DNA from: a virus
Strand: one strand, 5' to 3'
Virus record (IMG/VR): IMGVR_UViG_3300043571_000443
Span: 1-64,000 of that record
Length of the DNA stretch: 64,000 nt
Shown piece by piece: positions 211-62,695 of this stretch (the first letter of the stretch is position 1; every line of letters starts with the position of its first letter). Made by a program: the position numbers and the translations under genes. Under the pieces are notes generated by a model that did not search any database, was not told where the DNA came from, and saw only the letters and a list, made by a program, of their open reading frames with translations.

Positions 211-622
211 CTCCCACGATGGTGGGGATACTTGGCGACGTAGGATTTACCCCCACGCTGGTGGGGCTAGCCGATCCTAGGCGATGGACTCCCACGGAGT
301 GGGACAGGCGGGATCTATCGGAAAAACCCCCACGGCGGTGGGGAGCGCTAGCTGAGCCAGGGCGACGGACTCCCACGCAGGCGGGCCAAGGGCTGTCAAG
401 ATAAACTCCCACTATGTGGGCTCATTTATGTAGGGAAAGACTCCCACCAGGGTGGGGATGGCTGGCTGGCCCGGGCAATGGCAGACAGACTCCCAGAGAA
501 ACCCCCAGAGAAACCCCCACGGGGGTGGGGATGGGGAGCTACCGCTGATCGACGGACCCCCACGGGGGGTGGGGCTAGGAAGAAAAAATGATCGGTTACC
601 GATCCACTCCCACCGAAGTGGG
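211..622 (-). CRISPR. CRISPR-like array A, hairpin repeats with short period
   Basis: About ten GC-rich hairpins of the form CCCAC-N3-6-GTGGG start near 211, 251, 290, 326, 370, 406, 441, 513, 556 and 606. Most steps are 35-50 bases; one step of 72 (441 to 513) contains a broken half unit near 490-510. Read on the minus strand each hairpin is followed by a short handle of the type GTGGATC, GTTTCTC or GTCCGTC, as in arrays B and C. The spacing is about half that of a normal array, so the units have hairpin-only repeats or decayed spacers. The leader is at 623-667. Open frames across this stretch are products of the repeats, not genes. Confidence 0.6.
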
Positions 623-667
623 ATCCACTTACCACCAAGTTGTCAAGGTTCCTGCCAACACTATACC
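623..667 (-). promoter_or_regulatory. leader of array A with extended -10 box
   Basis: On the minus strand TG-G-TATAGT (-10 at 660-665) is followed by GGCAGGA, then TTGACAACTTGGTGGTAA and the first hairpin. The same string, with few changes, precedes arrays B (6019 on) and C (15064 down), so it is a shared leader that transcribes into each array. No good -35 box is seen; the TG extension may compensate. Confidence 0.6.
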
Positions 668-673
668 ACAGAA

Positions 674-1495
674 CTACCCCGCCACGCTCCATTCCTTCCA
701 CGCCAGCGGGCTAGCCTGGTTGAGGATCATGCCCGACACCCTGGCAGGCCCAGCTAGCTCGAACTCGCCCAGGCCCTTGCTCAGGTGGCGCAGGCTGGCC
801 CGGCCAATGGCCCAGGGATCGGTCAAGGTGCATTTCACCCCAGCGGCCACGACAATGCCGCCGTTGAACGCCTGCAGTCGCCGCCATGGCCATAGGAGGT
901 ATTGCACTAGGTCTGGGTTGTCAGCATCGAGTGTCTCGCCGTAGTCGATGGGGCGCTTCCACCAGGGCACCCAGGACGATACCGGCACCGCGTTGAGCTC
1001 CAGGAAGTCTGCTAGGGTATCGCCCCACTTCCAGGCCACTAGCTGGCCCATGTGGCTGGGCTTAGGCCCGCTGATCGGCAGGCCCTTTACCTGTGCCTTG
1101 AGCCCGGGCCTATCGCAGAAGTAGGCGGTGATCAATGCCTTGATCAAGTCGGCCTCGCTCACCCGTCTGTCCAAGAAGTTACGGGGCACCAGGGCGGGGC
1201 CGGATCCATCCATCAGGTCCATGATGGCCTGCGGGCTACGGGTGGAGGCTTCCGGCAGGCCCGTTACTTGCAGGAACCCTGGCCAGCCAGGGCAACCCCA
1301 CAGCGGCATATCGCCCGGCAATGGTTGGTTTTCCATAGTGACACTAGCCATAGCCAGCAGCAGGCGTAGGAACGCCTGGCGGGTGAGGTGGCCTTCGCTG
1401 ATGTCGGTGTAGGCTTCAGGGCTGGCCAGTAGGTCGGCCAGGCTGGCGGTGCCTTGGGGGGTGGCAATGCAGGGGTAAGTAAAGATGTCGGCCAT
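674..1495 (-). CDS. cas8e: Compact Cas8e/Cse1-like large subunit
   Basis: The 273-residue product resembles the N-terminal part of Cse1 (CasA), the type I-E Cascade subunit that recognises the PAM and recruits Cas3. The signs are the Cse1-like opening, the helix HLTRQAFLRLLLAMA near residues 37-51 and the GCPGWPGFLQVTG stretch that follows. Typical Cse1 is about 500 residues, so this one is roughly half length. ATG 1495 is chosen because GGAG lies 6 bases upstream; the frame is open further up to 1738 but that would overlap the divergent gene. It is transcribed away from the other cas genes, which is not the usual operon order. The family call rests on motif and context, not on an alignment. 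Confidence 0.65.
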   Translation of the reverse strand: MADIFTYPCIATPQGTASLADLLASPEAYTDISEGHLTRQAFLRLLLAMASVTMENQPLPGDMPLWGCPGWPGFLQVTGLPEASTRSPQAIMDLMDGSGPALVPRNFLDRRVSEADLIKALITAYFCDRPGLKAQVKGLPISGPKPSHMGQLVAWKWGDTLADFLELNAVPVSSWVPWWKRPIDYGETLDADNPDLVQYLLWPWRRLQAFNGGIVVAAGVKCTLTDPWAIGRASLRHLSKGLGEFELAGPARVSGMILNQASPLAWKEWSVAG

Positions 1496-1565
1496 GTGGT
1501 TCTCCAGATAACGAAAAAGTGTTACTATCCAATTGTAAGCCATTAGTCGGGTTACGAGGAACCAC

Positions 1566-2210
1566 ATGAATTTTCCCCACGACATAATTAGGGACGCCTG
1601 GGCGGTGCGCCATGGTGGCCGCACTGAGGTACCCGTAGGCCAGGACAGGATTGACGTAGTGGTGTCGGGTACCCAGTACGACACGCTGGTGGAGGTAAAG
1701 CCCGCCCACCAGGTGCGCGAGGCCATCGGCCAGGGCAACAGTTATCAACGACGCTGGGCCCGGCCCAGTAAAAAGCACCTAGTGCTATTTCACGATACTG
1801 GTCTGCCGGCTAAGTCCACGCTGGAGCGACTGCGGACCCACCAGGACTCTGGTGAACTGTCCAGCTTTACCTGGGAGATAGTGCCAGCGCTGCCCAGACC
1901 TAGCTACCACATTGCCGGGGTGCCGATCAGTTTGGAGCGGCCTGTCAAAGATATTTGCGATCAGGTGGGCCGGATCAAGCGGGACTTTCAGAGCGGATCC
2001 ATTGCCGCCGAGGATCAGGCTTTTCTACACCACCTGATCATTGGCGGCCAACGTCAGGCCCGGGGTGCCCAGCTAGTCCAGGGCCGCCTAGGCGTCGAGC
2101 TGCAGGTGGTGCGGTTCGATAGCAACACCTTTACCCTGTCCAGCCAGACTGCTGCGGTGGACTGGCTGCGGCAAGCCAATTACAGAACCGTTTACGGAGG
2201 ATCACGATAA
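1566..2210 (+). CDS. PD-(D/E)XK-type nuclease in the I-E-like cas operon
   Basis: The 214-residue protein has the core of a PD-(D/E)XK nuclease in its N-terminal third: Asp30 in RIDVVV, Glu43-Val-Lys45 in LVEVK, and a Gln/Tyr motif (GQGNSYQ, residues 55-61). This fold cuts DNA with divalent metal ions. The C-terminal half is not recognised. The start has GAGG 8 bases upstream and the stop overlaps the Cas6e start (TAATG), so the two are translationally coupled. It holds a place where I-E operons have no such gene, and Cas3 is missing from the window. A role as the effector nuclease is inference; it could also be an unrelated passenger. Confidence 0.6.
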   Translation: MNFPHDIIRDAWAVRHGGRTEVPVGQDRIDVVVSGTQYDTLVEVKPAHQVREAIGQGNSYQRRWARPSKKHLVLFHDTGLPAKSTLERLRTHQDSGELSSFTWEIVPALPRPSYHIAGVPISLERPVKDICDQVGRIKRDFQSGSIAAEDQAFLHHLIIGGQRQARGAQLVQGRLGVELQVVRFDSNTFTLSSQTAAVDWLRQANYRTVYGGSR

Positions 2211-2821
2211 TGCTATACCTTTCTCGTTTTGCAAGGCCAGAAGGCCATGGTAGTTTGCACCGCTATGTGATGGCGGGCTTTCCTGACGATCTGGGCCCAG
2301 ACCCCCGCAGCCAAGTCGGGGCATTGTTCCGGGTTGACGGCGGATCCATCCTGGTGCAGTCGGTAGAAAAGCCCAAGTGGCCTAAAGCCTATGAGGCCCA
2401 GGTAAAGCTCGAGTTTAAGCCTAGCCTGCTCAAGGTTGGGGAGCGTTACCGCTTCCGCTTGGGGCTCAACTCCGTGGCCCAAAGCAACCGGGATGGCCGA
2501 TGCCGTCGTTACCCGGTGCCTGCCGTTGACTGGCTGGCGGCCAGGGAGGATCGGCTAGGTGCTACCTTCGAGGTGCGCCAGGTGCGGGTGCAAAAACACC
2601 ATGATCATGTTCGGCGGGAGCACTATACCCGCAGCTTCCCCATCGAGGTATCGGTGGTGGACGGCTACCTGACGGTGACCCATAGCCAGCGGCTGGCTGA
2701 TGCCATGGTCAACGGCATTGGCCGGGAGAAGGCTTATGGTTGCGGGCTGCTGTCCTTGCTGCCGGTGGCGGTGGTGACTCCTGCGGCTGAGCCTGCACTG
2801 GTGGGAGTGGTTCAAGCATAA
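2210..2821 (+). CDS. cas6e: Cas6e (CasE) CRISPR RNA endonuclease
   Basis: Cas6e cuts the CRISPR precursor at the base of each repeat hairpin and stays bound in Cascade. The 203-residue product has the usual family length (about 200). It shows a conserved His17 in LHRYVM, matching the catalytic histidine region, and the C-terminal glycine-rich loop GIGREKAYGCGLL (about residues 169-181), which is diagnostic of Cas6e. It overlaps the nuclease gene by one base. Two of the hairpins it would be expected to cut lie immediately after its own stop codon. Confidence 0.92.
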   Translation: MLYLSRFARPEGHGSLHRYVMAGFPDDLGPDPRSQVGALFRVDGGSILVQSVEKPKWPKAYEAQVKLEFKPSLLKVGERYRFRLGLNSVAQSNRDGRCRRYPVPAVDWLAAREDRLGATFEVRQVRVQKHHDHVRREHYTRSFPIEVSVVDGYLTVTHSQRLADAMVNGIGREKAYGCGLLSLLPVAVVTPAAEPALVGVVQA

Positions 2822-2825: not shown

Positions 2826-2885
2826 TGGCCCACTCCGGTGGGGGTGGATCGACAACCAAAAAGGCCCCACAGGCGTGGGGGTGGC
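2826..2885 (+). repeat. Two CRISPR-like hairpins between cas6e and cas7e
   Basis: Two hairpins (CCCACTCCGGTGGG and CCCCACAGGCGTGGGGG), about 35 bases apart, each followed by GTGGATC or GTGGCCA on the plus strand. They therefore lie in the sense orientation of the cas transcript. The 3-prime handle resembles that of I-E repeats known from Thermus and actinobacteria (GTGGACC-type). Cleavage here would split the cas mRNA. Confidence 0.6.
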
Positions 2886-2916: not shown

Positions 2917-4170
2917 ATGTTTATCGAACTGCACCTGATCCATGCCTTGCCGCCCAGCAATGCCAACCGGGACAAGTCCGGGGCACCCAAAAAGATCCAA
3001 TACGGCGGTAGCTGGCGAGCCCGGCTATCCAGCCAGTCCCAGAAACGGGCCGCCCGGCAACACTATGGGGAATGGATGGCCGTTGACCGCAAGGCTTTGG
3101 CTTTCCGTAGCCGTCGCCATGATCAGGCACTGGCCAGCCGCCTATCCTGCTGCTGCACTGGCTTTTTGGGCGGTGACGCTGATAACTTGATGGTGGCCCG
3201 GTTCTTGTTGGGCTTGTTCAACCTCAAAGACGACAACCTGATCCCGGCCATGCTGGAGGATAGCAGCAACCTGCTATTCCTGTCCGAGCATGAGCTGGAC
3301 ACCATTGCCCTCCTGGCCGCCGACCATTCGGTGCTACTGGGAGATATGCTGGAGCGGGCCGGGCGTTACCGGGAGGCTTTGGCGCTCGAGCCCAAAAAGG
3401 CCCCAGCACCTGAAAAGCCTAGCGCCAGGGATTTGCAGGGCATTCGCAAAGCCTTGGGCAAGCTAGGCCAGCAAGTACCAGGGGATGTCGCACTGTTTGG
3501 CCGGATGATGGCCAGCCTGACTGAGGCCAGCGTCGATGGCTGCACCCAGGTGGCGGATGCGATCTCGGTTAATTCCTTTGGTATCACCAATGTCAAGGGC
3601 ATGGGCCAAGTGATCGGCGAGCTGGACTTTTTCACCGCCGAAGACGATATTGAGCCGATGGACGAAGAGTCTAAGTCTGGCGCTGGCCACCTGGGGGAGC
3701 TGCCCATTATCTCGCCGGTTTATTACCGGTATGCCAATGTCAATGTGACTGAGCTGGCCCGCTTGATCGGCGACCCCGAGCTAGCCCAGCAGTTTGCCAA
3801 AGGGTTCATTACGGCATTTTGCGCCACCTTGCCCACTGGGTATATTCGCAGTCGGGGCCACCTAACCCAGCCAGACTATGTGCAGGTGCAGGTGACAGCG
3901 GCTCAGCCGTATAGCTTGGTAGGTGCTTTTCATGTGCCGATCAACAGTTGTGTTGGCGATGAAGACTTTTTGGTTCAGAGTATCCCGCATCAAGCCGCCG
4001 ACGCTTTGCGTCAGTACCAGGACCGACTAGCCAGCATGTACGGCGATAAGTCGCTTTATAAGTCCGAAGTTACCACCCATCCTGGCTGGTTTGGAATGCC
4101 TTTGGACGAAGCCATCGACGGGGCCCTAGCGGTAGTCATGGGCGCTGGCAAGGAGGTGGCCTATGCCTAA
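2917..4170 (+). CDS. cas7e: Cas7e (CasC/Cse4) Cascade backbone
   Basis: The backbone RAMP protein of type I-E Cascade, which polymerises along the crRNA spacer. The N-terminus MFIELHLIHALPPSNANRD followed by GAPKKIQYGG and WRARLSSQSQKRAAR is the standard Cas7e signature, where the protein contacts the guide RNA. VNSFGITNVKG near residue 208 is also typical. The product is 417 residues, somewhat longer than the common 350-390. A strong Shine-Dalgarno (GGGAGGA) precedes ATG 2917. It overlaps cas5e by 8 bases. Confidence 0.93.
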   Translation: MFIELHLIHALPPSNANRDKSGAPKKIQYGGSWRARLSSQSQKRAARQHYGEWMAVDRKALAFRSRRHDQALASRLSCCCTGFLGGDADNLMVARFLLGLFNLKDDNLIPAMLEDSSNLLFLSEHELDTIALLAADHSVLLGDMLERAGRYREALALEPKKAPAPEKPSARDLQGIRKALGKLGQQVPGDVALFGRMMASLTEASVDGCTQVADAISVNSFGITNVKGMGQVIGELDFFTAEDDIEPMDEESKSGAGHLGELPIISPVYYRYANVNVTELARLIGDPELAQQFAKGFITAFCATLPTGYIRSRGHLTQPDYVQVQVTAAQPYSLVGAFHVPINSCVGDEDFLVQSIPHQAADALRQYQDRLASMYGDKSLYKSEVTTHPGWFGMPLDEAIDGALAVVMGAGKEVAYA

Positions 4171-4609
4171 GCTAGTTTTAAGGCTAGCGGGCCCCATGGC
4201 CGCCTATGGTACCGGGCCACGGCTGCAGCAACGACTGACCGAAGAGGCGCCAACCGAGTCGGCGATCCGTGGGATGCTCTGTGCTGCACTGGGCATTCGC
4301 CGGGGTGAGCCAGCGCCAGCCCTCGACGGGCTGCAGGTAGAGGTAGGCGAGACTACCCATGGCGGCATCCTGGAGGACTTTCACACCATCCGCGATGCAG
4401 TTACCTACGACGGAGCGCCAGGCCGCAATGCCATCACCACCCGGCACTACCTAAGCGATTTCAGCTCCACCGTTACCCTGCGGGGTGACTTGCAGCAGAT
4501 CCGCGCCATTGCCAAGGCGCTGGCCCGGCCTAAGTTCCAGCTATACCTGGGGCGGCGTAACTGTGTTCCGACTGGCCCGATCTGGGCTGTTGCCCGGGAA
4601 GAGGCTTAG
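4163..4609 (+). CDS. cas5e: Cas5e (CasD), short form
   Basis: Cas5e caps the 5-prime handle of the crRNA in Cascade. The start LVLRLAGPMAAYGTGPR, then TESAIRGMLCAALGIRRGE, matches the conserved beginning of Cas5e. The product is 148 residues against the usual 210-240, ending soon after the RHYLSDF segment, so the thumb and C-terminal parts are reduced. The start overlaps the cas7e stop. The same size reduction is seen in the Cas8e-like protein, which points to a miniaturised complex. Confidence 0.85.
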   Translation: MPKLVLRLAGPMAAYGTGPRLQQRLTEEAPTESAIRGMLCAALGIRRGEPAPALDGLQVEVGETTHGGILEDFHTIRDAVTYDGAPGRNAITTRHYLSDFSSTVTLRGDLQQIRAIAKALARPKFQLYLGRRNCVPTGPIWAVAREEA

Positions 4610-4610: not shown

Positions 4611-4866
4611 CCCGTTCCCCCACTGCGGTGGGCGTGGATCCGTATTGCTAATGCAGCCCCATTCTGATGGGGGTGGATCGCCGGGGAAAAATATCCCACA
4701 CTGGTGGGAGTGGATCCAAAATTCACAACGCCTCACGCTGGTGGGGGTGCCTCACTCCACAAAAAAGCCCACTTGGTGGGAGTGGATCAGTAAATAAATA
4801 GGCCCCACCTCGTGGGCGTGGATCCTATGTCAGTATCCCCTACTTCCCACCTGGTGGGAGTGTGCC
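4611..4866 (+). CRISPR. Short-period CRISPR-like array E downstream of cas5e
   Basis: Seven hairpins in sense orientation, each a CCCAC/GTGGG stem followed by the handle GTGGATC (twice degenerate: GTGCCTC, GTGTGCC). Handles begin at 4634, 4673, 4710, 4747, 4782, 4818 and 4860, so the period is 35-42. With a repeat of about 24 bases the variable part is only 11-18 bases, too short for an ordinary spacer. The variable parts differ from each other. No leader of the A/B/C type precedes it, so it is probably transcribed with the cas operon. Confidence 0.6.
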
Positions 4867-5985: not shown

Positions 5986-6011
5986 CTTTGGCTGCGCCAT
6001 TTGGCTAGAGT

Positions 6012-6051
6012 TGTGTGCTATAGTGGTGGCAGGACATTGAAAATTTGGTGG
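6012..6051 (+). promoter_or_regulatory. Leader of array B with extended -10 box
   Basis: TG-C-TATAGT with the -10 at 6019-6024, then GGCAGGACATTGAAAATTTG and the first, fused repeat. Nearly identical in order to leaders A and C. It reads rightwards into array B. Confidence 0.65.
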
Positions 6052-6443
6052 TAGGTGACGGTGGACCCACTTCGGTGGGGGTTTCTCGAGCGGCAAATCC
6101 CACTTGGTAAACCAGTTGATTGCCTCGCAAACACCTCCCCACTTCGGTGGGGGTTTCTCCGTGATGGCTGATCGCAATGTCACCAACCGGGCCGTCGCAA
6201 ACACCTCCCCACCCCGGTGGGGGTTTCTCCCTGGTCTGGTTGGTCGACGACTCGGTAACCACCGCCCTCGCAAACACCTCCCCACTCCGGTGGGGGTTTC
6301 TCCGTGGTAGTGGAGCTGATTAAATTCTGGCTACAGCACTCGCAAACACCTCCCCACTCCGGTGGGGGTTTCTCGGTTAGGGCCAGTTTGCTAGCCTGAC
6401 CCGTCACCTCGCAAACACCTCCCCACTTTGGTGGGGGTGAGTC
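6052..6443 (+). CRISPR. CRISPR array B, 36-nt repeats
   Basis: Repeats of 36 bases beginning CTCGCAAACACCTCCCCAC and ending GGTGGGGGTTTCTC at 6124-6159, 6194-6229, 6267-6302, 6339-6374 and 6408-6443; the last has a mutated end. A leader-fused half repeat ends at 6087. Spacers are unique: 6088-6123, 6160-6193, 6230-6266, 6303-6338 and 6375-6407 (36, 34, 37, 36, 33 bases). The stem is CCCCAC/GTGGGG, in most copies with a TTCG or TCCG loop; C-UUCG-G is an unusually stable RNA tetraloop. Two solitary hairpins follow near 6484-6500 and 6527-6545. Which Cas6 processes it is unknown. Confidence 0.9.
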
Positions 6444-6583
6444 TTGCCCCTATCGCTCCAGCGTGAAACTGGGCTTGGCATTCCCCACTCTAGTGGGCGT
6501 TCCTCCAGCCCGTACCTATCCTATACCCCACCATCGTGGGAGTTTCCGCCCTGGCTTTGCCGGGCTTTGTGCGTTTTAGGCGC

Positions 6584-8660: not shown

Positions 8661-8680
8661 CTCCCACGGTGGTGGGGCGG
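8661..8680 (-). repeat. Solitary CRISPR-like hairpin
   Basis: CTCCCACGGTGGTGGGG, the same hairpin as in the arrays, with the handle GTGCTTAC on the minus strand. It lies in sense orientation between the last gene of the clamp operon and its terminator. Confidence 0.45.
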
Positions 8681-13755: not shown

Positions 13756-13817
13756 TCCCCACCCTGGTGGGAGTGTTTCAATTTGCAGTTTGCTATCCCA
13801 CTTTGGTGGGAGCAAAA
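13756..13817 (+). repeat. Two CRISPR-like hairpins between terminators
   Basis: CCCCACCCTGGTGGG and CCCACTTTGGTGGG, 41 bases apart, with handles GTGTTTC and GCAAAA on the plus strand. CAATTTGC (13780) and GCAAATTG (near 13830) flank the second hairpin as an inverted repeat. The pair is isolated by terminators on both sides. Confidence 0.45.
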
Positions 13818-14534: not shown

Positions 14535-15031
14535 CGCTCCCACGGGGTGGGGTTGCTCAGGGCAAAGAATAACTCCCACGATGGTGGGGTGATCTAGCGA
14601 CCGGAGCGACTCCCACCGAAGTGGGGCTGGGCTGCTGGGTTTGGAAAAACCCCCACCGAAGTGGAGAGGCGTTTGCGAACAGGCCGGGGAGGGGCCGGGG
14701 GCCGGGGCATGGTGGGGAGAAACCCCCACCGAAGTGGGGAGGTGGTTGCGAGTTGTCAAGGCTGACTTTGAAGCTGGCGTGGCGGTCGAGAAACCCCCAC
14801 CGCAGTGGGGAGGTGCTTGCGAGTGTGCTTAGCAGAGCCCTTGATGCCAGCCTAGGCGACGAGAAACCCCCACCGAAGTGGGGTGTGCTTTGCGAGAACC
14901 CGCTGATCGAGGGCTTGACGCTTCGAGACTGGGAGAAACCCCCACCGAAGCGGGGAGGTCTTTGCGAGCAGTTAGGACAAATTGACTCGAAGACGGAAAA
15001 ACCCCCACCGGAGTGGGATCCACCACTGTCA
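14535..15031 (-). CRISPR. CRISPR array C, mixed full and short period
   Basis: Full 36-nt repeats (plus-strand sense GAGAAACCCCCACCGAAG ... TTTGCGAG, the reverse complement of array B) at 14644-14679, 14717-14752, 14788-14823, 14861-14896 and 14933-14968. A leader-fused repeat lies at about 14996-15031. Spacers: 14680-14716, 14753-14787, 14824-14860, 14897-14932, 14969-14995 (37, 35, 37, 36, 27 bases). Beyond 14644 the array changes to bare hairpins centred near 14545, 14580 and 14617, period about 36. The leader is on the right, so the array is transcribed on the minus strand and the short-period part is the distal, older end. Confidence 0.88.
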
Positions 15032-15066
15032 CCACAAATTGTCAATGTCCTGCCTACCACTATAGC
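15032..15066 (-). promoter_or_regulatory. Leader of array C with extended -10 box
   Basis: On the minus strand TG-C-TATAGT (-10 at 15059-15064), GGCAGGACATTGACAATTTG, then the fused first repeat. Matches leaders A and B. The same bases read on the plus strand give TTGTCA/TATAGC, so a weak promoter towards 15118 is also possible. Confidence 0.65.
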
Positions 15067-15117
15067 ACACATCCACCAACCTGGGCACCCTATAAAAAAT
15101 TCTCTGAGGGATCCACC

Positions 15118-17639: not shown

Positions 17640-20600
17640 CTATAGCACCAATGCGGTAAGATCGCTGAGCTGGCTATCCAGATTGGCGCTAGCCAGCCCT
17701 ACAGCTTGCCGGATCTCAGGACTGGTCAGACCTGTTGTTGCGCCAGTACCAAACACATCAGCGTTTAGGTTGATCGCATAGCTACTGGCGGCAATCCCGG
17801 TACTGCTGCCGGGGAACGTAATACTCCCGCCTGCAATGCTGAGGGGTGTCGTGCTGTTGGTATTTTCAACCTCTACCCGCCCCGCCTGGTAACTGGTGAA
17901 CGACAGCGCCTCTAGGGTGTCAAAGCTAGCCAGCCGAATGCCTGCTTCTGTGCTGCGCACCCAGCACCACCAAAGAAAAATATTCTGAATCAACTCAACG
18001 CCGTCAGTATCATTGGAATTGATCTGAAGAGTGCCCACACCCTCTAGGGCAATGGCAAACTGAGATAGGCCAGAGCCCGTATTAGCCGGGGTTAGTACGC
18101 CATATTTATTGCTTTGGATCTGGGTGCTGGCAACAATGGCTTCGTGGATAGGCTCTAAGACGGTTGGGCCGATAGCTGCACCCACGGTAATACCGCCTGT
18201 GATACTCCACACTAGCAGGCTGTCTCGGGTATCTAGGAAGCTGCCAGAGGTCGCTGTTCCGCCAGACTCCGCCCAGTAGGTGGCCTTAAGCCGTACCAGG
18301 GCACCATTGGGCAGGCTTAAGTTTTGGGCAAGGCCGCTGCCGCCAGACACCACGACATTGAACAGTTCAGTCTCAGCGGCTAGAGTAAAGTCACCACTGC
18401 CCTGGCTGGTAAAGTCTACCGGGGTGCTGGGAATATTGGCGATGCTAGCGAAAAGTTTACCGTCGCTCCAGTAATAGAAGCCACCATCCTTAAGGACATT
18501 ACTGGTGGTCGTGGGCAAGGTTGCGCCGCTATTGAGGCTAAAGCGTACCTGGGTCCAAGGGGCAGCGGTGGCAAAGGCCGCAGGACGCCCCTGGCTATCA
18601 TTGCCCAGGGTGATCGCATCGGTGGTGGTATTGATAGCGGTGCTGGCTACGGTGAAGCTTTGCACCCTGGCCGCATAGGCTCTGGATCCATCGGCAAAAT
18701 TAGGTGCAGTGAATCGGATCTGGGAAACAATGATGATCTTGGTAGGGTCGTAGATTAGCCCAGGGTCGCTGTAGGGAATGGTGAGGGTGAACGGTCCAAC
18801 ATTGTTAGCCGCCACCACATTCGCCCCCGTCTGGAGGATCAGATTGCTGCCAATGGTGGTGTTCTGGCTGATCGCCAGGGTAGCTCCGGAAGAGACGGTA
18901 AAATTATCGTTATAGGTAGCTTTACTGCTAAGCGTCAGAGTGGTGCCAGCGGCCATGGTAAAGCGATAGGTGCCGGTAATACCTGCCGTGGCCCCAGACA
19001 AGGTAAATCCTTCGTTAAATGTGCCCTCGGCGTCGTCGGTAGCTGTGTAGGCGTAGGGGTAAAATTCACCATTGGCATAGCCGGTGCTGCCGTCGCTATT
19101 GCGCAAGCTGATCAAGCTAGCGCCAATCACCAAAATAGAGAGTGCCTGGAATGCGGTGATCGCAGTAAATAGAGTCAGCGCACCATTGGCGGAGGTTTTG
19201 GTGATGGCCGGGGCAGTGGTATAGCTTTGGGTCAGCAGGTCAATGACCGTATTGAAGCGGTTGAGTTGATTTAGCCTAGCGATCCGGCTGTTATTGCCAG
19301 AGATGAAACTGTTGGCCGCATCGGTGCTGTTGTAGCTCAGCGCTAGGGGTGCGGTATAGGAGGGAATCTGGAAGCTGGATAGGTACTCCGGCAACGTATA
19401 TTGCCTGCTAGTGGGGGCGACCTGAGTGCCCTTCACGTTGACAGTCGCCGTGCCGTCAAAGGCGTCTAGGTTCAGCTCATAAGCATTAACGCCAGCGGTG
19501 GTCACAAAAGCGATCACGGTGCGGTTAGCCACGGTGTTATGGTAGAGCGCACCTAAAAGTGAGTCGGTAGCAGTAGTATTGTGCAGCCAATAAAACAATG
19601 CTGCGCTGGTGGGCACCGCATAGCCGCTGGAGTGCGCAATGGTTTGGCCGTTGATAGTAATGGTGCCGGTGCCATCAAAAATGTTGTCAGCAAAGCGGTA
19701 GAGCAGGTTAATGGTGTCCCCCGCTACCAGCAGGACTAAATCAGAACCCGCCTTTGTAAAACTTAGATGACGGGGCGTAGAAGCACTTAGCCCATTGGTG
19801 GTGAAGGTGGCCTTTACTGCTGGAGCGCTTGATACTGTTGCAGCATCAAAGGCGTAGAGAAATAGCTGATTAGTGGTGCTGGTGGCGATCAAATAGCTAG
19901 TGCCAGCTTTGTAATAAAAATCTAGGTCTCTAGCCGTAACATTGACTGAAAATACAGGGGTGGCGATGTTGTAATAGCCAATAGTAGTTTCGGCGTTGGG
20001 CGCAATGCTTGTCCCATTGACGGTCACCGAGCTGGTGCCATTGAAATTGGCAAGTATTAAATTACGATAAAACGTAGCGGTACTGGTATTGCGAATCGAG
20101 GCAAAGCCATTAGCAAGGTCCGTTGATAGGCGGGCAGCGCTAGGAAAGGCTACACTGGCTAACCGCAATCGGGCACTAACAAATTTGTTGCCAGCCCCCC
20201 AGAACTGTAGCGCATCACCAACGGCGACAGCGTTGGTCAGCCCTGGCGCAAAGGTAACCCTAGCTCGGGTGCCTGCATCAACTAGGTTCGTCCGAGGATT
20301 AACCACCGATACATTGTTGCTGGCGAAATTCACCACATAGATCCGATCACTGGTCGGCGCATAGGCAATGGCGAAAGGCGAACTGCCAACGGTGATAGTG
20401 GCTACGACTGCATTACTGACAGGATTAACCACCGATACATTGCCTTCATTCGCCACATAGATCCGATCACTAGTTGGCGCATAGCCAACGGCGATAGGCC
20501 CAGTGCCAACGGTGATAGTGGCTACGACCGCATTACTGACAGGATTGATCACCGATACATTGTTGGCGGTAGAATTCGCTACATAGATCCGATCACTAGT

Positions 20601-21686
20601 TGGCGCATAGCCAACGGCGCGAGGCCCAGTGCCAACGGTGATAGTGGCTACGACTGCATTAGTGACAGGATCAACCACCGATACATTGTTAGCGCTGTTA
20701 TTCGCCACATAGATCCGATCACTAGTTGGCGCATAGCCAACGGCCCGAGGCGTAGTGCCAACGGTGATAGTGGCTACGACCGCATTAGTGACAGGATTAA
20801 TTACCGACACATTCTGGCCGCTTTGATTCGCCACATAGATCCGATCACTAGTTGGCGCATAGGCAACGGCGAAAGGCCCAGTGCCAACGGTGATAGTGGC
20901 TACGACCGCATTGGTATCAGGATTAACTACCGATACATTGTTGGTGGTAAGATTCGCCACATAGATCCGATCACTAGTTGGCGCATAGCCAACGGCGCGA
21001 GGCCCAGTGCCAACGGTGATAGTGGCTACGACCGCATTACTGACAGGATTGATCACCGATACATTGTTAGCGCTGTTATTCGCCACATAGATCCGATCAC
21101 TAGTTGGCGCATAGCTAACGGCGAAAGGCTGAGTGCCAACGGCGATGGTGCCGGACAGTGCAATAATGCTAGCCGCTGACAGGGTATGAGTCGTTGCACC
21201 ACCAGCCACCGTGAAGCTATCGCCTACCGTTGGCGCAGTCTGAAAGGTGCCATTGCCGTTGTTGAGGTCCAGCGTAGTGCTACCCGCCAATAGGTTAGCG
21301 GCAGTCGTCCCGGCATCTACCAAAATGACTGCACAGCCACCCACGACCGTTGATGGGTCAAAGGCATAGCACCAAATATTGCCCCGATCTCCAGCGGTTA
21401 GCAAATAGCCTACGCCGCCTGAAAAGAAAAATTGTAGGTCAGAGCTAGTCGTGTCATTGGTTTGCCTAAATTGACCTTGGCGATTTGCTTCAGTAAAAGT
21501 GCCGCCATTGCGAAAGTCGCCCCGCCAAAAAGAAACTAGGCTGCCAAGTCCTGCAAACACTAGGCTATTGTTCGGCGCTGCATCGTTAAACCAATACACT
21601 AAGCTTTGATTGGCAAGGATAGGATCAGCCGCATAGGTGGCATTCGCAGGGGTAACTTCAGCCGTCAGGGCGGTATTGACGCTCAT
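17640..21686 (-). CDS. Large tail fibre with YVTN-type beta-propeller
   Basis: 1348 residues. After about 170 residues there are seven 40-42-residue YVTN repeats (YAPTSDRIYVANNSANNVSV, NPVTNAVVATITVG), residues about 190-480, enough for one seven-bladed beta-propeller. The remaining C-terminal part is long, Ser/Thr/Gly-rich and beta-strand dominated. YVTN/NHL propellers occur in archaeal and bacterial surface proteins and bind proteins or glycans. Inferred role: receptor binding on the host surface. It overlaps the glycosyltransferase gene by 4 bases. No GGATCC occurs from 18.7 kb on through it, unlike neighbouring regions. Confidence 0.75.
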   Translation of the reverse strand: MSVNTALTAEVTPANATYAADPILANQSLVYWFNDAAPNNSLVFAGLGSLVSFWRGDFRNGGTFTEANRQGQFRQTNDTTSSDLQFFFSGGVGYLLTAGDRGNIWCYAFDPSTVVGGCAVILVDAGTTAANLLAGSTTLDLNNGNGTFQTAPTVGDSFTVAGGATTHTLSAASIIALSGTIAVGTQPFAVSYAPTSDRIYVANNSANNVSVINPVSNAVVATITVGTGPRAVGYAPTSDRIYVANLTTNNVSVVNPDTNAVVATITVGTGPFAVAYAPTSDRIYVANQSGQNVSVINPVTNAVVATITVGTTPRAVGYAPTSDRIYVANNSANNVSVVDPVTNAVVATITVGTGPRAVGYAPTSDRIYVANSTANNVSVINPVSNAVVATITVGTGPIAVGYAPTSDRIYVANEGNVSVVNPVSNAVVATITVGSSPFAIAYAPTSDRIYVVNFASNNVSVVNPRTNLVDAGTRARVTFAPGLTNAVAVGDALQFWGAGNKFVSARLRLASVAFPSAARLSTDLANGFASIRNTSTATFYRNLILANFNGTSSVTVNGTSIAPNAETTIGYYNIATPVFSVNVTARDLDFYYKAGTSYLIATSTTNQLFLYAFDAATVSSAPAVKATFTTNGLSASTPRHLSFTKAGSDLVLLVAGDTINLLYRFADNIFDGTGTITINGQTIAHSSGYAVPTSAALFYWLHNTTATDSLLGALYHNTVANRTVIAFVTTAGVNAYELNLDAFDGTATVNVKGTQVAPTSRQYTLPEYLSSFQIPSYTAPLALSYNSTDAANSFISGNNSRIARLNQLNRFNTVIDLLTQSYTTAPAITKTSANGALTLFTAITAFQALSILVIGASLISLRNSDGSTGYANGEFYPYAYTATDDAEGTFNEGFTLSGATAGITGTYRFTMAAGTTLTLSSKATYNDNFTVSSGATLAISQNTTIGSNLILQTGANVVAANNVGPFTLTIPYSDPGLIYDPTKIIIVSQIRFTAPNFADGSRAYAARVQSFTVASTAINTTTDAITLGNDSQGRPAAFATAAPWTQVRFSLNSGATLPTTTSNVLKDGGFYYWSDGKLFASIANIPSTPVDFTSQGSGDFTLAAETELFNVVVSGGSGLAQNLSLPNGALVRLKATYWAESGGTATSGSFLDTRDSLLVWSITGGITVGAAIGPTVLEPIHEAIVASTQIQSNKYGVLTPANTGSGLSQFAIALEGVGTLQINSNDTDGVELIQNIFLWWCWVRSTEAGIRLASFDTLEALSFTSYQAGRVEVENTNSTTPLSIAGGSITFPGSSTGIAASSYAINLNADVFGTGATTGLTSPEIRQAVGLASANLDSQLSDLTALVL
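20335..21120. repeat. Seven 120-126-bp tandem repeats coding for propeller blades
   Basis: The string ACATAGATCCGATCAC recurs at 20335, 20455, 20581, 20707, 20833, 20959 and 21085; the period is 126 bases (42 codons), once 120. The copies are highly similar at DNA level, so the array is young or homogenised by gene conversion. Confidence 0.9.
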
Positions 21687-23407: not shown

Positions 23408-23504
23408 CTCCCACCATTGTGGGACATACACCATCTGGCCGAAGCACCCCCACCATTGTGGGGCCTGCACCCTCTGGCCGAGCCACCCCCACCGCAGTGG
23501 GCAA
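23406..23504 (-). repeat. Three CRISPR-like hairpins (locus H)
   Basis: Three units of about 40 bases (CCCAC starts near 23410, 23449 and 23488) with handles GTGGGAGTC, GTGGGGGTGCTTC and GTGGGGGTGGCTC on the minus strand. Unlike a true array, the stretches between hairpins resemble each other (ACACCATCTGGCCGAAGC, GCACCCTCTGGCCGAGCC). One of them recurs at 62451-62490 with 4 differences over 40 bases. Confidence 0.55.
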
Positions 23505-32976: not shown

Positions 32977-34071
32977 TCAAGCTGATCGCTCGATTACAGC
33001 AGATGTCCGCCAATAGTAACTTACCTGAGGATCCGCGCCTAGCGTCGTCAACGTCAAGGTGTTTGACTCTGTGTCTATAATTCCGAACCGGTTGCCGCCA
33101 TCCTTAAGATATGGAATGCAGTAGATCTTTGTACCTACAACAGCAGATGTCCGCCAATAGTAACTTACCTGAGGATCCGCGCCTAGCGTCGTCAACGTCA
33201 AGGTGTTTGACTCTGTGTCTATAATTCCGAACCGGTTGCCGCCATCCTTAAGATATGGAATGCAGTAGATCTTTGTACCTACAACAGCGGACGTTAACCA
33301 GCGATACTGTATTTCCGGATCAGCTCCTAAGTCTACTAACTCTAGCGTGTCTGACTCGGTATCTAGAATACCAAACCGATTACCTGCTATTGGGCCAAGC
33401 GAAGGATCGCCTACACTGCTAAAAGGAATGGAATAAATTTTCATTCCTACGATAGCAGATGTATTCCATGAATATATTATATTAGGATCAAGGCCTAATC
33501 TTGTTAACATCAATGTGTTTGACTGCACATTTATAATACCAAAATGATTACTTCCAATTAGCGCTACAGATGGAATGCAATAAATCTTTGTGCCTACACT
33601 AATACATGAAGACCAATTGTAAGTTACCTGAATATTCGCAGTTAGCGTGGTTAAGGTTAACAGATCTAATGCCGTGTCTATAATCCCAAACTGGGTTGTT
33701 CCACTTGTGCCAAAAGACGGAATGCAATAAACGCTTGTGCCTACAACAACAGATGCAAACCAGTTATAACTAACCTGAGAATTAACATTTAGTGTAGTCA
33801 ATGTTAATGAGTTTGATCCTGCATTTATAATCCCGAATTGATTATTTCCGCTTGTGGCGACAGATGGGACACAATATATCTTTGACCCTACGACAGCAGA
33901 TGTAGCCCACTGATAATCAATTTGCGTATCAACTCCTAATGTTTTTAGGCCCAAGACATTTGATTGTGCATTGATAAGACCAAACTGATTCCCTCCAGAG
34001 CCTTCAAAAGGAATGCAATAAATATCGAATTTCTCCCCCCCAAACCATACCCAGCCTAGCTGCCTACCCAT
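32977..34071 (-). CDS. Beta-propeller-like tail protein with tandem repeats
   Basis: 364 residues composed of about seven 48-residue repeats with the core GTKIYCIP...GNRFGIIDTESNTLTLTTLGA, alternating with the segment SYYWRTSAVV. These are likely beta-propeller blades. The last two complete copies are exact DNA duplicates. The reading frame ends abruptly after IERSA, so the gene may be truncated at its 3-prime end. Base composition is more AT-rich than its neighbours, which suggests transfer. Confidence 0.65.
   Translation of the reverse strand: MGRQLGWVWFGGEKFDIYCIPFEGSGGNQFGLINAQSNVLGLKTLGVDTQIDYQWATSAVVGSKIYCVPSVATSGNNQFGIINAGSNSLTLTTLNVNSQVSYNWFASVVVGTSVYCIPSFGTSGTTQFGIIDTALDLLTLTTLTANIQVTYNWSSCISVGTKIYCIPSVALIGSNHFGIINVQSNTLMLTRLGLDPNIIYSWNTSAIVGMKIYSIPFSSVGDPSLGPIAGNRFGILDTESDTLELVDLGADPEIQYRWLTSAVVGTKIYCIPYLKDGGNRFGIIDTESNTLTLTTLGADPQVSYYWRTSAVVGTKIYCIPYLKDGGNRFGIIDTESNTLTLTTLGADPQVSYYWRTSAVIERSA
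33001..33288. repeat. Exact 144-bp tandem duplication
   Basis: 33001-33144 and 33145-33288 appear identical (48 codons). This marks a very recent duplication of one propeller blade. Confidence 0.85.
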
Positions 34072-53236: not shown

Positions 53237-53259
53237 CCCCCGGCCTAGCTGGGGGTTTT
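53237..53259 (+). terminator. Terminator of the 53005 gene
   Basis: CCCCCGGC/GCTGGGGG stem followed by TTTT; it overlaps the 3-prime end of csf1 on the other strand. Confidence 0.7.
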
Positions 53260-53919
53260 GCTTTGGGCCACATAGCTGAGCAGGTCCATTAACCGGCTGC
53301 CCCGCACTGGCGCGATCTGGTCCTCCAGTGGCTGATACTGGCTGATCGCCCGCATCAGCCTGTCGCTGTGGTACAAACCGCTATCGATCTCCGTCTTGCT
53401 AAACCCCAGCGCCATTAGCCCCTCATAGGCAGCTAGAAGGCCCGTGAAGCGTTCCCGGCCTATCCACAGGGTATCTAGCTCGAACTGCACCGGGAAATGG
53501 TCTCTGCTATGGCCATCCTGGGCCCAGGGCAGCACATGTTTCTGGCCAGACTCAGCAATGACAATCGTAAACGGTGGCTCCGGTGGCTCCAGTAGCCAGC
53601 CACGGATCTGAGCTCGGGTGGGCAAGTCCGAGACTACCGGAAAGATGTCTTTGCCGATGGCCTTGGCCTCACCGATCGCAGGCGACAGCAGCACATCGCC
53701 CTGGTACAACCGGCTCAGGGACCGGCCCCATAGCTTACTCCACTTGTCCTTGCCCTGATTCCAGTACCACAGCAGCTTCTCATGGCCGTCGATGGCACCA
53801 TAGCACCGCCCGCATAGCTGGTCGGAGTCTGGGCAACGGGCCATGCTGTGGCCGGTGAAAGTGTCCTTGAGCGCCAAGGGGAAGCTGGCGGGCTTGCCGC
53901 ATAGGTAGCACTCAGCCAT
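53245..53919 (-). CDS. csf1: Csf1-like type IV large subunit
   Basis: 224 residues. Csf1 stands in for Cas8 in type IV CRISPR complexes. An N-terminal zinc-finger is readable (Cys4, Cys7 in CYLCGKP; Cys29; Cys36, Cys39 in QLCGRCYG), as is usual in Csf1. A helical middle (KDKWSKLWGRSLSRLYQGD) and a C-terminal helical domain follow. ATG 53919 is preferred to 53988 because GGAGG lies 9 bases upstream and it overlaps the cysH stop by 8 bases. Sits at the end of the CysH operon, apart from Csf2 and Csf3. Confidence 0.68.
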   Translation of the reverse strand: MAECYLCGKPASFPLALKDTFTGHSMARCPDSDQLCGRCYGAIDGHEKLLWYWNQGKDKWSKLWGRSLSRLYQGDVLLSPAIGEAKAIGKDIFPVVSDLPTRAQIRGWLLEPPEPPFTIVIAESGQKHVLPWAQDGHSRDHFPVQFELDTLWIGRERFTGLLAAYEGLMALGFSKTEIDSGLYHSDRLMRAISQYQPLEDQIAPVRGSRLMDLLSYVAQSKTPS

Positions 53920-54655
53920 GGTCTGCAACCTCCGGAAAGTGTTTACAAAATTCAGCCCAAAATTCTGGATGGTAGCGCCGCAGGTCACTGAGTCGCCCCC
54001 AGTTTACGCCAGTAGTCCCGATGGGTGGCCCATTGCGCACCGTCAGCCGGTCCCGGTCGTACATGGCAGGGTAGGGCAGTCGGTGGGCGTCGATATAGCA
54101 CCAAATATCCTGGGTGCTCCAAAAGCCGACCGGCGAACATACCCACAGGCCATCCTTACGCTGGTATAGCTCGCCCTTGCCCTTCAGGTACATAGCGCGG
54201 CCCCGAGACTCTTTGCGTAGCCCCCAGGCATAGCCTCGCACGCCATGGGCCTCCTGGTAGTCATCCAGCGGGCCATACATTAGCGCTGCATTAATGCGCT
54301 TGTCCAGGCCGGTCGCCATGGTGCCATCCAAGGGAATGCCATAGTCCTGGTACAGCTTCAGTAGGCTGCGGGGTGGGCATAGCTCGATGATGTTCCAGCC
54401 CTGGCCCTGCAGGTGGTGCAATAGCTCGATGCAGTCCGGCCATTCTGCCAACGGCCCTTGGTTTACCCAGGCAAAAGGGCAGTCCGGCCATACCTGGCGG
54501 ATTAAGTGAGCCATTACCAAGCTATCCTTGCCGCCACTGACTGAGCCATAGGCGTAGCGATCTGTGGCCTCCAGCCAGCGGCCAATAACAGAAAGCGCCC
54601 GGTCAACCTTGCGGGTCAACCAGGGCGCTCGTGAGCCGGTGCCGGTGTTAAGCAA
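53912..54655 (-). CDS. cysH: CysH-like PP-loop protein of the type IV module
   Basis: 247 residues. The PP-loop SGGKDS is at residues 40-45, in the PAPS-reductase/ATP-pyrophosphatase fold; GLRKESRGRAMYLKGKGEL and CSPVGFWSTQDIWCYID further on are also CysH-like. CysH-like genes are the standing partner of type IV-B CRISPR loci (established in surveys of type IV), with unknown function. It overlaps csf1 by 8 bases and its ATG overlaps the small gene upstream, so it is tightly coupled to the complex. Confidence 0.85.
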   Translation of the reverse strand: MLNTGTGSRAPWLTRKVDRALSVIGRWLEATDRYAYGSVSGGKDSLVMAHLIRQVWPDCPFAWVNQGPLAEWPDCIELLHHLQGQGWNIIELCPPRSLLKLYQDYGIPLDGTMATGLDKRINAALMYGPLDDYQEAHGVRGYAWGLRKESRGRAMYLKGKGELYQRKDGLWVCSPVGFWSTQDIWCYIDAHRLPYPAMYDRDRLTVRNGPPIGTTGVNWGRLSDLRRYHPEFWAEFCKHFPEVADHG

Positions 54656-54956
54656 GCTGCATCCGCTCGCTCATTGCATCCGCAAACCATTCGCGGATCT
54701 TGTCTTCGGCATTGTCATAAAAGCGAGTGTTGGAGTCGTCATCCCACTCTTCGTCGTTGAGGTGGGGGACGGTAAGAATGAGTCCGGGGCTATCGTACAG
54801 GTTCCCAACAGAACCCTTGTCCAGGGATCGGTAGGTGCCATCCTCAAACAGCTCAACAACGTAAGCACCGCCGCCCCAGGATGCCTTTGTGGAAGAATCA
54901 ACGGTGGCCTCGAAGTCGATGGCCATGAAGTTATCGAAAGCCTTTTGAATAGTCAT
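54648..54956 (-). CDS. Acidic small protein leading the cysH-csf1 operon
   Basis: 102 residues, acidic, with a helical C-terminus (YDNAEDKIREWFADAMSERM) and a beta N-terminus. Unrecognised. Leader CACTTATGAGGA and an early promoter-operator (54993-55021) directly upstream make it the first gene of the cysH-csf1 unit, expressed with early phage genes. A regulator or co-factor of the type IV complex is possible; there is no direct evidence. Confidence 0.6.
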   Translation of the reverse strand: MTIQKAFDNFMAIDFEATVDSSTKASWGGGAYVVELFEDGTYRSLDKGSVGNLYDSPGLILTVPHLNDEEWDDDSNTRFYDNAEDKIREWFADAMSERMQLA

Positions 54957-54992
54957 CAGTCAGTCCTCATAAGTGGTTTGTTCCATGCCTTC

Positions 54993-55021
54993 AATATACC
55001 CCCTGCATATCGAACTGTCAA
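54993..55021 (-). promoter_or_regulatory. Early promoter-operator of the cysH-csf1 unit
   Basis: TTGACA (55016-55021), 17-base spacer GTTCGATATGCAGGGGG, TATATT (54993-54998), then GAAGG. The spacer equals that of the promoter at 52941. It places cysH and csf1 under early phage control, separate from csf2/csf3. Confidence 0.8.
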
Positions 55022-55626
55022 CACTTTTCGACAAAATAGCCACAGCCTAGGCGCTGTCTACCTCCTAGCCCTTGCCGCTGGAGAGTCAGCGACGCATCCG
55101 GCGATAGGTCGGCAAAGCTTACCCCGTAGCCCACCACGGCAGCATCCTTGATCCGCAGGGTTTTGCGCTCCCCCAGTACCGGCATAGACTGTACCCCCAA
55201 CCGTTCCAGCGCCTTGCCTAGGGCTATCCCGAACTCAAAAGGTGACACCTGGTCCTGGTACTGGGCTTTGATGGTCACCAGCCTTGCCTCCAGGCTAGGA
55301 CATGGCTGCAGGGATGCACCCGTGAAGGTGCCTAGCTGCACCAGCGCCTTACCCACCCGCAATACTTGCCCGTCCAGGCTACCGAATAGCTCCAGGTTGG
55401 CCAGCTCAGTCCGCACCCCTAGCCAGCTTTCGCTACCCAGTTGCACCCAGCCCTGGCGGTCCGGGATACCGTTGATCGTCTTCAGCGACCAGGCCAGCTC
55501 CTTTAGCCCCGGCAGGCGTTCCACCAGAGCGCTATAAAGCCGGTAGCCATGGTCGGCGGGTATCCTATCGCCCTGCACCGGCCAAGCTAGCTGTATCCAG
55601 GTAGGCGGTGTGGACGGGCATGGCAC
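55018..55626 (-). CDS. cas6: Cas6 of the type IV module (Cmx6-like)
   Basis: 202 residues from GTG 55626. It looks like the Cas6 family called Cmx6 (I-MYXAN): AWPVQGDRIPADHGYRLYSA, LPGLKELAWSLKTINGIPD, the core GRVLR-like LDGQVLRVGKALVQLGTF, and the C-terminal glycine-rich loop LGGRQRLGCGYFVEKC. Cas6 cuts CRISPR RNA. IV-B systems reported so far usually lack a Cas6, so its presence beside csf3 is unusual. The frame is open to 55776, but this would overlap csf3 by over 200 bases; no ATG lies nearer, so the start is uncertain. Confidence 0.72.
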   Translation of the reverse strand: MPCPSTPPTWIQLAWPVQGDRIPADHGYRLYSALVERLPGLKELAWSLKTINGIPDRQGWVQLGSESWLGVRTELANLELFGSLDGQVLRVGKALVQLGTFTGASLQPCPSLEARLVTIKAQYQDQVSPFEFGIALGKALERLGVQSMPVLGERKTLRIKDAAVVGYGVSFADLSPDASLTLQRQGLGGRQRLGCGYFVEKC

Positions 55627-56293
55627 AGCGGGCTTTGTTGGCTGATAGCCAGGCGGGGGGTCGCCAGCCCCAGTCGCGGATGGCAATATCAATCGGTCGG
55701 TCCCGGGGCAGGTGGACGGCGGGGATGGGTCGCATAAGTTCACCGTTTGGCCCCCATAGGTGCCAGTCTTGGTCATGGTCCTCTACCTCCCAGTTGGTAA
55801 CTTGCCCGTAGCCATGGGCGCGTTTCTTGCCTAGCCCAGTACAGCCTTGCAATAATGCCGCGATGCCTTCCCGGTCGCCCTGGCAGTACCAGGTGATTGT
55901 CGGTGCCAGCCGCACAAACAAGGGCAGGTCGTAGGCTTTCTCCGCCCCCTGACTGGTATCCCACTTTGCCTTGCGCTTCCCCCAGGCCGGTGGTGGGCTA
56001 TCGATCCCAGGTGCCCAGCGCTTCCTAAATTTGCTAACCGACTCATTGCGGTAGGTGTAGCACGGACTAGAGGTTTGCCAGTACCAATCCTCGCCCAGCC
56101 AACCCTTAGCCAGTGGCATGTGTTCATCCACTACCGGGCGGCTAGCTTCTACGTCCTGGGCGCTAGGGTTGGGGGCCGCCATGCCCCGGGCATCGAGGAT
56201 CAACCACTCCAGCAGGCTAGCCAGATCAGGACTCCAGTCATCAAAGACGGCAATGCCCGACGATAGCCGGGCGGTGACTCGCAGGTTAGCCAT
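55565..56293 (-). CDS. csf3: Csf3 (Cas5-like) of type IV complex
   Basis: 242 residues. Csf3 plays the role of Cas5, binding the crRNA handle. The start NLRVTARLSSGIAVFDDWSP, with LASLLEWLI, is the common Csf3 opening, and LQGCTGLGKKRAHGYGQVTN holds the glycine-rich loop near residue 155. Overlaps csf2 by 8 bases and runs on into the cas6 frame. Regarded as a firm member of the type IV family by motif and context. Confidence 0.82.
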   Translation of the reverse strand: MANLRVTARLSSGIAVFDDWSPDLASLLEWLILDARGMAAPNPSAQDVEASRPVVDEHMPLAKGWLGEDWYWQTSSPCYTYRNESVSKFRKRWAPGIDSPPPAWGKRKAKWDTSQGAEKAYDLPLFVRLAPTITWYCQGDREGIAALLQGCTGLGKKRAHGYGQVTNWEVEDHDQDWHLWGPNGELMRPIPAVHLPRDRPIDIAIRDWGWRPPAWLSANKARCAMPVHTAYLDTASLAGAGR

Positions 56294-57449: not shown

Positions 57450-57957
57450 CGGTGGTTACCTCTACGTCGATAGCATCGTCTGGCGCATCCTGGCCTAGCG
57501 CCCGGTCTTCCTCAAAGCGCAGGCGGCACAGCACCTGAATGATAGCCGCCCGGGTCCGGCATAGCTCAAGCACATCCCACTCGGTAAAGCCGTCCTTGGC
57601 GATCTGCTGCAGCAAGTCCCGCCAGCCGACAAAGACTAGCGCCTCATCCTGGGTCAGCTCCTGGATCTCGCTCAGGTCAGCGTTTACCCGTAGGATGCGC
57701 TGCTCTGGCTGCACGATGCCGGTCAGTACCGCTGGCCGTAGGTGGCTGATCAAGGCATTGACCAGGCGTTGTAGGTAGTCCTCCAGCGTGGTGGATACCT
57801 CAGCGCTATTCTGGATAGTGGACTCCAGAAAAGTCCAGGTCTTGGTGCCCATGGCTGGACTTTTGGCCCGGTCGCGGCACTTGAACACCCAATAGCTAAG
57901 GGCTGCCGCTAGCCCATAGGCGCTATCGGAGGCATTGGAAAAACCGAATTGACTCAT
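57442..57957 (-). CDS. Cas11-like small subunit of the type IV module
   Basis: 171 residues from ATG 57957, almost wholly helical, no cysteine motif. In IV-B systems a Cas11-type small subunit is encoded beside csf2. The position here (first gene, 8-base overlap with csf2) and the helical composition fit; the sequence by itself does not prove it. A TATAAT box at 57977-57982 leaves a very short leader. The open frame reaches 58005. Confidence 0.55.
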   Translation of the reverse strand: MSQFGFSNASDSAYGLAAALSYWVFKCRDRAKSPAMGTKTWTFLESTIQNSAEVSTTLEDYLQRLVNALISHLRPAVLTGIVQPEQRILRVNADLSEIQELTQDEALVFVGWRDLLQQIAKDGFTEWDVLELCRTRAAIIQVLCRLRFEEDRALGQDAPDDAIDVEVTTDV

Positions 57958-57976
57958 AATGCTTGACAAAACTGCC

Positions 57977-57982
57977 ATTATA
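57977..57982 (-). promoter_or_regulatory. TATAAT box of the csf2-csf3 unit
   Basis: A perfect TATAAT read on the minus strand, 20 bases before the Cas11-like start. No matching -35 at the usual spacing. Confidence 0.4.
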
Positions 57983-62435: not shown

Positions 62436-62695
62436 GGTTCCCCCACCCCTGTGGGGCCTGCACCATCTGGTTGAACCACCCCCACCGCAGCGGGGCAGTT
62501 AACGCCCTTCAGCAGGACACACCCCCACCCCGTGGGGCCTCTGAAAAGCTACCGATCCACCCCCACCATCATGGGACACCATAACCCTGTAGGAGTCACC
62601 CCCACCCGGTGGGGCACAGGAGCTAAACCGATCAACTCCCACCGCAGTGGGGCCTTTATCCCGAGTGACTCACCCCCACCAGCGTGGGGCCTGGC
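62436..62695 (-). CRISPR. Short-period CRISPR-like array I
   Basis: About seven hairpins at roughly 40-base steps, with minus-strand handles such as GTGGGGGTGAGTC, GTGGGAGTTGATC and GTGGGGGTGGATC. It lies in sense orientation between the gene ending at 62696 and the NurA operon. The unit at 62451-62490 is a near copy of one at 23458-23497, including the inter-hairpin stretch. Confidence 0.55.

Follow-up and report, generated by a model that had tools for sequence, protein, structure and literature searches.

The half-period hairpin arrays of this phage, chief among them array D, are conserved and not decayed, and therefore probably give rise to miniature guide RNAs that would silence DNA by binding it and would not destroy it; we propose, with a probability of about 0.6, that they encode working short crRNAs for silencing by a Cascade without Cas3. 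This proposal builds on the anatomy of the units, their conservation, the classes of guide length, the gradient from the leader to the distal end and the gene content, all of which are visible in the sequence itself.

The window analysed is the first 64 kb of an IMG/VR virus record (IMGVR_UViG_3300043571_000443; 74,186 bases in total) and codes for phage terminase, portal, minor head and tail fibre proteins together with two integrases, a sigma factor and a DnaN clamp. As two Leptolyngbya phages are among the nearest terminases in INPHARED, and as Acaryochloris provides the top plasmid Cas7e match by bit score among the matches listed, the host is likely to be a cyanobacterium; the repeat pattern and Cas7e were each searched against genome contigs to find it, and gave no match. 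Related IMG/VR records are G001 (72.8 kb), G004 (77.5 kb), G003 (43 kb) and G002 (29 kb), along with the smaller G006 (18 kb), G015 and G016 (5 kb each) and five further fragments. The same array architecture occurs in twelve other viral records of this phage family, and tandem short units sought elsewhere in IMG/VR were found only in that family. An Rfam search matched no family.

Table 1. Hairpin arrays, leaders, cas genes and associated features of the window (nucleotide positions); the three leaders were read from the sequence.
Feature	Position	Strand	Details
Array A	213..622	-	ten hairpins; guides from leader to distal end 26, 20, 50, 13, 13, 20, 16, 16, 16 nt
Array A leader	623..665	-	TATAGTGTTGGCAGGAACCTTGACAACTTGGTGGTAAG; resembles B and C leaders
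273-aa protein	674..1495	-	divergent from cas operon; 90% conserved
Candidate target of the 2829-2879 guide	1508..1521	+	divergent cas promoter; AG PAM; 10/11 pairing positions
SfsA-like (PD-(D/E)XK-type) protein	1566..2210	+	head of cas operon; E 0.0024, below cut-off
cas6e	2210..2821	+	PADLOC E 5e-30, Pfam; His17 at catalytic position conserved
Single mini-crRNA unit	2829..2879	+	between cas6e and cas7e; guide ACAACCAAAAAGGC; candidate cas-regulating RNA
cas7e	2917..4170	+	417 aa; PADLOC E 3e-69, Pfam
cas5e	4163..4609	+	148 aa; PADLOC E 9e-41, Pfam; without C-terminal part of other Cas5e
Array D	4619..4858	+	seven hairpins, six short guides; leaderless; directly 3' of cas5e
Array B leader	6010..6065	+	
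Array B	6066..6540	+	long-period CRISPR, eight hairpins; last guides 39 nt, then 20 nt
Solitary hairpin of the same kind	8663..8676	-	
Single short unit	13758..13810	+	no leader in window
Array C	14539..15017	-	five long units (guides 40-50 nt), then three short (17, 14, 14 nt), leader-distal
Array C leader	15018..15075	-	
Array H	23410..23501	-	three hairpins, two 16-nt guides; conserved in G001, G002, G004, G006
Array I	62442..62688	-	seven hairpins, guides 14-20 nt

Array architecture and conservation of the units

The window contains 40 copies of the motif CCCACNNNNGTGGG when one mismatch at most is allowed, whereas shuffled sequences contain 4.35 +- 2.1, and CCCAC-N3/4-GTGGG hairpins recur every 35-44 nt in arrays D, A, H and I and at the leader-distal end of C, which bears out the half-period spacing that the initial annotation had noticed at 4611-4866, in A, H and I and at the far end of C. 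In array D the C-arms lie at 4619, 4658, 4695, 4732, 4768, 4804 and 4846, giving periods of 39, 37, 37, 36, 36 and 42, and guides of 16, 14, 14, 13, 14 and 20 nt each follow an 8-nt handle; the gap from handle to hairpin, previously put at 11-18 bases, is thereby corrected to 13-20 nt in D and 13-26 nt in A. Array A does belong to the short-period class to which it had been assigned, but it is mixed, with one 73-nt unit among the short ones, and it has a CRISPR leader of the form TATAGTG...TTGACAACTTGGTGGTAAG common to arrays A, B and C. B, like C, has the long periods attributed to it, here measured at 62-73, except that its last unit measures 43 nt, and C switches from long to short within a single array, as had been described, its last three intervals being 40, 37 and 37. 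The short units (35-44 nt) and the long ones (about 62-79 nt) both depart from the type I-E period of ~61 nt with 32-33-nt spacers. The locus of array I holds 4-11 hairpins in nine records of the phage family.

Each unit runs in the order stem (CCCAC-N3/4-GTGGG), one base, 8-nt handle (GTnnnTCN), guide and next stem. This register is independently supported by the Acaryochloris type I-E repeat, GTTGT-CCCCAC-GCAT-GTGGGG-GTGGTCCG, in which the same stem is followed by a handle of 8 nt; a repeat with a 6-bp stem and an 8-nt 3' handle is present in the phage in the layout of the Acaryochloris CCCCACGCATGTGGGG-GTGGTCCG. In a handle-blind search GTnnnTC followed 187 of 188 unique non-terminal hairpins and only 3 of 38 terminal ones (Fisher 2e-36), and since the chance rate of the handle is only 1/256 this count is decisive even with array orientation set by the handle majority. 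Terminal hairpins have no need of a handle because no guide follows them, and its confinement to non-terminal hairpins is therefore a signature of selection on handle-guide-hairpin units. Variants of the stem are compatible with G.U pairing on the RNA strand in 36 cases, as against one mirror transition (p=5.5e-10), and across 36 clusters of units with identical guide positions 1-9 the fixed GT and TC are invariant while nnn, N and the loop vary freely.

Conservation of hairpin and strand as RNA would also suit a role in mRNA processing or 3'-end formation, in which Cas6e hairpins cut or protect phage transcripts and the guides are mere spacers, as would the location of most leaderless arrays between co-directional genes (D, the 2829 unit, I, and those at 70609 and 73536 of the record). 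Yet array H is antisense to both flanking genes, which led us to abandon the view that the hairpins always run in the direction of the genes, and such processing needs neither conserved guides nor a GTnnnTC found solely before a further hairpin; we regard it as distinctly improbable.

Guide lengths, ageing and sharing

Unique guides fall into classes of 13-17 nt (84 segments, with modes at 14 and 16), 20-22 nt (21) and 25-26 nt (5), the remainder comprising a single guide of 9 nt, a single one of 33 nt and then those of 37-56 nt. The empty intervals of 18-19, 23-24 and 27-32 nt are consistent with steps of 6, and 16 of 18 independent guides of 18-36 nt have a length of 14+6n or one nucleotide more (p=1.7e-6), although the modes at 14 and 16 nt do not share one 6-nt phase. 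One homologous guide measures 20 nt in four phages, whereas its counterpart in G015 is shorter by exactly 6 nt (CAGCCCGTACCTATC and CAGCCCGTACCTATCCTATAC). Steps of about 6 nt would fit the footprint of one Cas7. Because spacer and stem are separated by five additional bases in the E. coli crRNA, the phage guides may be loaded by only two Cas7e. Cascades engineered to carry shortened crRNAs likewise change in 6-nt steps, and in type I-F1, with 6 nt covered per Cas7, a stable Cascade requires a spacer of at least about 14 nt (PMC7296934); those complexes are engineered, whereas the phage arrays are natural.

From leader to tail, mixed arrays are mostly ordered long, intermediate, short, as seen in G004 (50, 48, 44, 20, 20, 21, 22, 21, 16, 13, 9, 20, 15, 16), G002 (41, 54, 43, 49, 56, 50, 48, 25, 16, 16, 14, 14) and array C of the window (40, 49, 50, 48, 50, 17, 14, 14). 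The order is broken in G016, by one 40-nt guide late in an array of G001 and by a 50-nt guide in third place in array A of the window. In G004 (11 hairpins) and G002 (8), the 13.7-kb locus comprises a leader, long units and then short units, whereas the window keeps one short unit there and no leader; taken with the gradient, this indicates that the seed-proximal part of old guides survives.

Short guides are also more often shared: 74 of 106 recur in another of the four main phages as against 11 of 60 long ones (per-genome Fisher p of 0.003, 0.05, 2e-5 and 5e-4), and all six guides of array D have homologues in G002. In type I-E, the bases that Cas7 flips out of the duplex of guide and target are every sixth one, starting with 6 and 12. 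These positions take 11 of 34 substitutions among homologous guides, 4.7 being expected (p=0.003), in 21 hand-curated clusters from closely related phages.

Three options had been put forward for the short units: decay, very short guides and a decoy. Decay, by which they would be functionless remnants of old CRISPR units cut by random deletion, finds some encouragement in their mostly leader-distal position and in a few units that have lost hairpins (e.g. around window position 529). It is contradicted because the handle is kept in 187/188 units, guide lengths are discrete and sharing between phages is commoner for short guides than for long ones; moreover, the stem changes are RNA-compatible, and relatives retain D, H and I, the short arrays that have no leader. 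We consider it highly improbable, and the same handle, length classes and sharing make very short guides the best supported of the three.

As a decoy in the manner of Racr, the units would be bound by host Cas6e and Cas7e and would disarm the host type I-E system, the guide sequence being irrelevant. Phage RNA anti-CRISPRs that mimic repeats exist, I-E ones included (PMC10651486), the cyanobacterial I-E repeat has the same stem, and the many copies per genome suit titration. Racr RNAs resemble the units described here in being phage RNAs with a CRISPR-repeat hairpin, but they derive from solitary repeats and lack the 5' handle, as shown by the RacrIF1 product (PMC10651486), whereas the phage units stand in tandem with handle and guide conserved. 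Further, the guides are conserved between phages with variation preferentially at positions 6 and 12, and the phage's own Cas6e, Cas7e and Cas5e would be titrated too. A dedicated decoy, which leaves the handle, guide conservation and the 6/12 preference unexplained, is thus unlikely; decoy action is possible as a side effect of the short units.

Cas proteins and candidate targets

Type I-E features of the phage are Cas7e, Cas5e and Cas6e. Cas1 (PF01867), the Cas3 HD domain (PF18019), Cse1/Cas8e (PF09481) and Cas11e/Cse2 (PF09485) were absent in five records in searches whose controls worked. The cas genes are present in all four records that cover the cas locus, the records without them being fragments; the counter-case named in the initial annotation, the same hairpins in relatives devoid of cas genes, thus did not turn up. 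The large subunit is needed for PAM reading, and the 273-aa protein may be a candidate truncated Cas8e/Cse1 large subunit, as suggested by a weak collinear alignment to Cas8e (198 columns, E 0.0019, probability 14%); its AlphaFold pLDDT of 32 renders the fold prediction unusable.

On the minus strand, window 53245-58005 contains a type IV-B-like operon coding for Csf1, a CysH-like PAPS reductase, Csf3, Csf2 and Cas11, to which is added a MYXAN-type Cas6 (PF09559); the operon occurs in G000 and G003. To our knowledge, type IV-B is described as having no processing enzyme. The guides might serve this complex (csf1, csf2, csf3, cas11, cysH-like and a cas6) instead of the I-E proteins, a reading favored by its genes in those two records and by reports of IV-B complexes with no known RNA source (PMC8175902). 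It appears very improbable given that G001 and G004 bear the same short arrays and yielded neither the PF09559 Cas6 sought in them nor type IV gene matches, and that I-E genes occur in every record covering the cas locus.

The long spacers are probably directed against related phages, or once were, since 7 of 70 agree with genes of the phage family in no fewer than 23 of their first 30 bases, as against 0-2 in block-shuffled controls; the integrase and the gene next to array C are among the genes matched. The 39-nt guide of array B (window 6422-6483; also in G001, G004 and G015) resembles the 3' coding end of the adjacent integrase, with mismatches mostly at positions divisible by 3 or 6. For the short guides, searches of the phage and its relatives (full guide; 1-5/7-11 seed; family-wide; intergenic with PAM; whole genome with PAM) gave no self-targets above composition, the cas promoter excepted. 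An excess of self-targets over shuffles (99 against 63; 183 against 114) was rejected as compositional because reverse-complemented guides behave alike (96 against 99), and an excess at NAG PAMs (19 against 7.3) consisted mostly of repeated orthologous matches.

The exception involves the unit between cas6e and cas7e, whose guide ACAACCAAAAAGGC matches CAG followed by ATAACGAAAAAG, the single mismatch among the pairing positions falling at seed position 2. The match is found in all three phages with that locus, the flipped position 6 being G or A, and a post hoc test gave p=0.0018, or 1e-4 with the AG PAM; it is the one candidate of CreA/CreR type, with seed match and PAM at a promoter, the other guides giving none. 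An Acaryochloris plasmid carries what looks like a clean natural parallel: a degenerate hairpin, the handle GTGGTCCG, a guide beginning GTAGCATTGGC and a hairpin lie between cas3 and cas8e, and AAG followed by GTAGCATTGGC stands 47 bases upstream of the first hairpin, so that the first 11 guide nucleotides match exactly. This CreR-like mini-crRNA maps to 6276-6342 of L165 (Acaryochloris marina plasmid pREC1, NZ_AP026076.1), between cas3 and casA, and has a second near match, AAG followed by GTAGCATTTGC, downstream.

Proposed mechanism and relation to known systems

Each short unit comprises the 8-nt 5' handle GTnnnTCN, a 13-21-nt guide and a Cas6e hairpin, and we infer that the units are transcribed and that the phage's own Cas6e would cut the array RNA 3' of each hairpin to give RNAs of ~37-45 nt. 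Such an RNA would load Cas5e on its handle, Cas6e on its hairpin and a few Cas7e in between, and the small Cascade, having no Cas3, would not destroy DNA but might bind by an ~11-nt seed beside a PAM and block transcription. Full-length new spacers would enter at the leader, and older units would be shortened at the 3' end of the guide in roughly Cas7-sized 6-nt steps down to the seed and then kept. More tentatively, we suggest that this constitutes a natural short-guide system, in which the phage may turn spacers in 6-nt steps into seed-only guides for a two- or three-Cas7e Cas3-less Cascade, with a genome-wide library repressing host or rival-phage genes.

The closest precedents are the CreA/CreR RNAs, crRNA-like molecules known in types I-B, I-E and V-A (PMC13131331), which guide Cascade to repress toxin or cas promoters. 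They share with the phage units the succession of hairpin, handle, short guide and hairpin and, as we would expect on the phage side, an ~11-nt seed and silencing without cleavage; furthermore, one phage unit lies inside the cas operon with a partial match to the cas promoter. They differ in being single units beside their target, whereas the phage has tandem arrays with up to ten short guides at many loci and mostly without self-targets. In type I-B, spacers of 16-24 nt repress without interference (PMC10989794). Phage and virus CRISPR mini-arrays are comparable as phage-borne repeats, several long spacers here resembling related-phage genes, but they have only one or two spacers, of full length, and rely on the Cas proteins of the host (PMC11656645), in contrast to the half-length guides and own Cas6e, Cas7e and Cas5e of this phage. 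Type IV-A and CAST systems likewise place RNA-guided binding without Cas3, as predicted here, on a mobile element, although with other proteins and full-length spacers.

Thus crRNA-guided silencing by a Cas3-less Cascade is of a known kind, short silencing crRNAs being familiar as single regulatory RNAs and engineered tools, whereas natural tandem half-length arrays on a phage, with ~6-nt steps, appear to be new; no natural arrays of half-length guides were met in the literature searched, which was covered in part. If the short-crRNA reading holds, tandem arrays, steps of about one Cas7 and ageing from leader to tail would represent a new way in which a virus naturally employs Cascade, would show what evolution retains of a spacer when cleavage is not needed (an 11-nt seed), would offer a compact multiplex repressor and would make the role of Cas3-less phage Cascades directly testable.

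Some further features of the record were noted. Over the whole record GGATCC is over-represented (TGGATCCA 24 times), there is avoidance of CGATCG, GGCGCC and GCCGGC, and HIP1 (GCGATCGC) does not occur. A HerA/FtsK-like ATPase with similarity to MADS mad8 is encoded at window 59596-61233 (minus strand), and the record also has matches to mad2 and BrxP-type models. A tandem repeat of 126 nt in ~7 copies lies at window 20295-21150 inside a 1348-aa open frame, and two 144-nt tandem copies, 100% identical, occupy 32996-33288 inside a 364-aa open frame, representing either a recent duplication or an assembly artefact.
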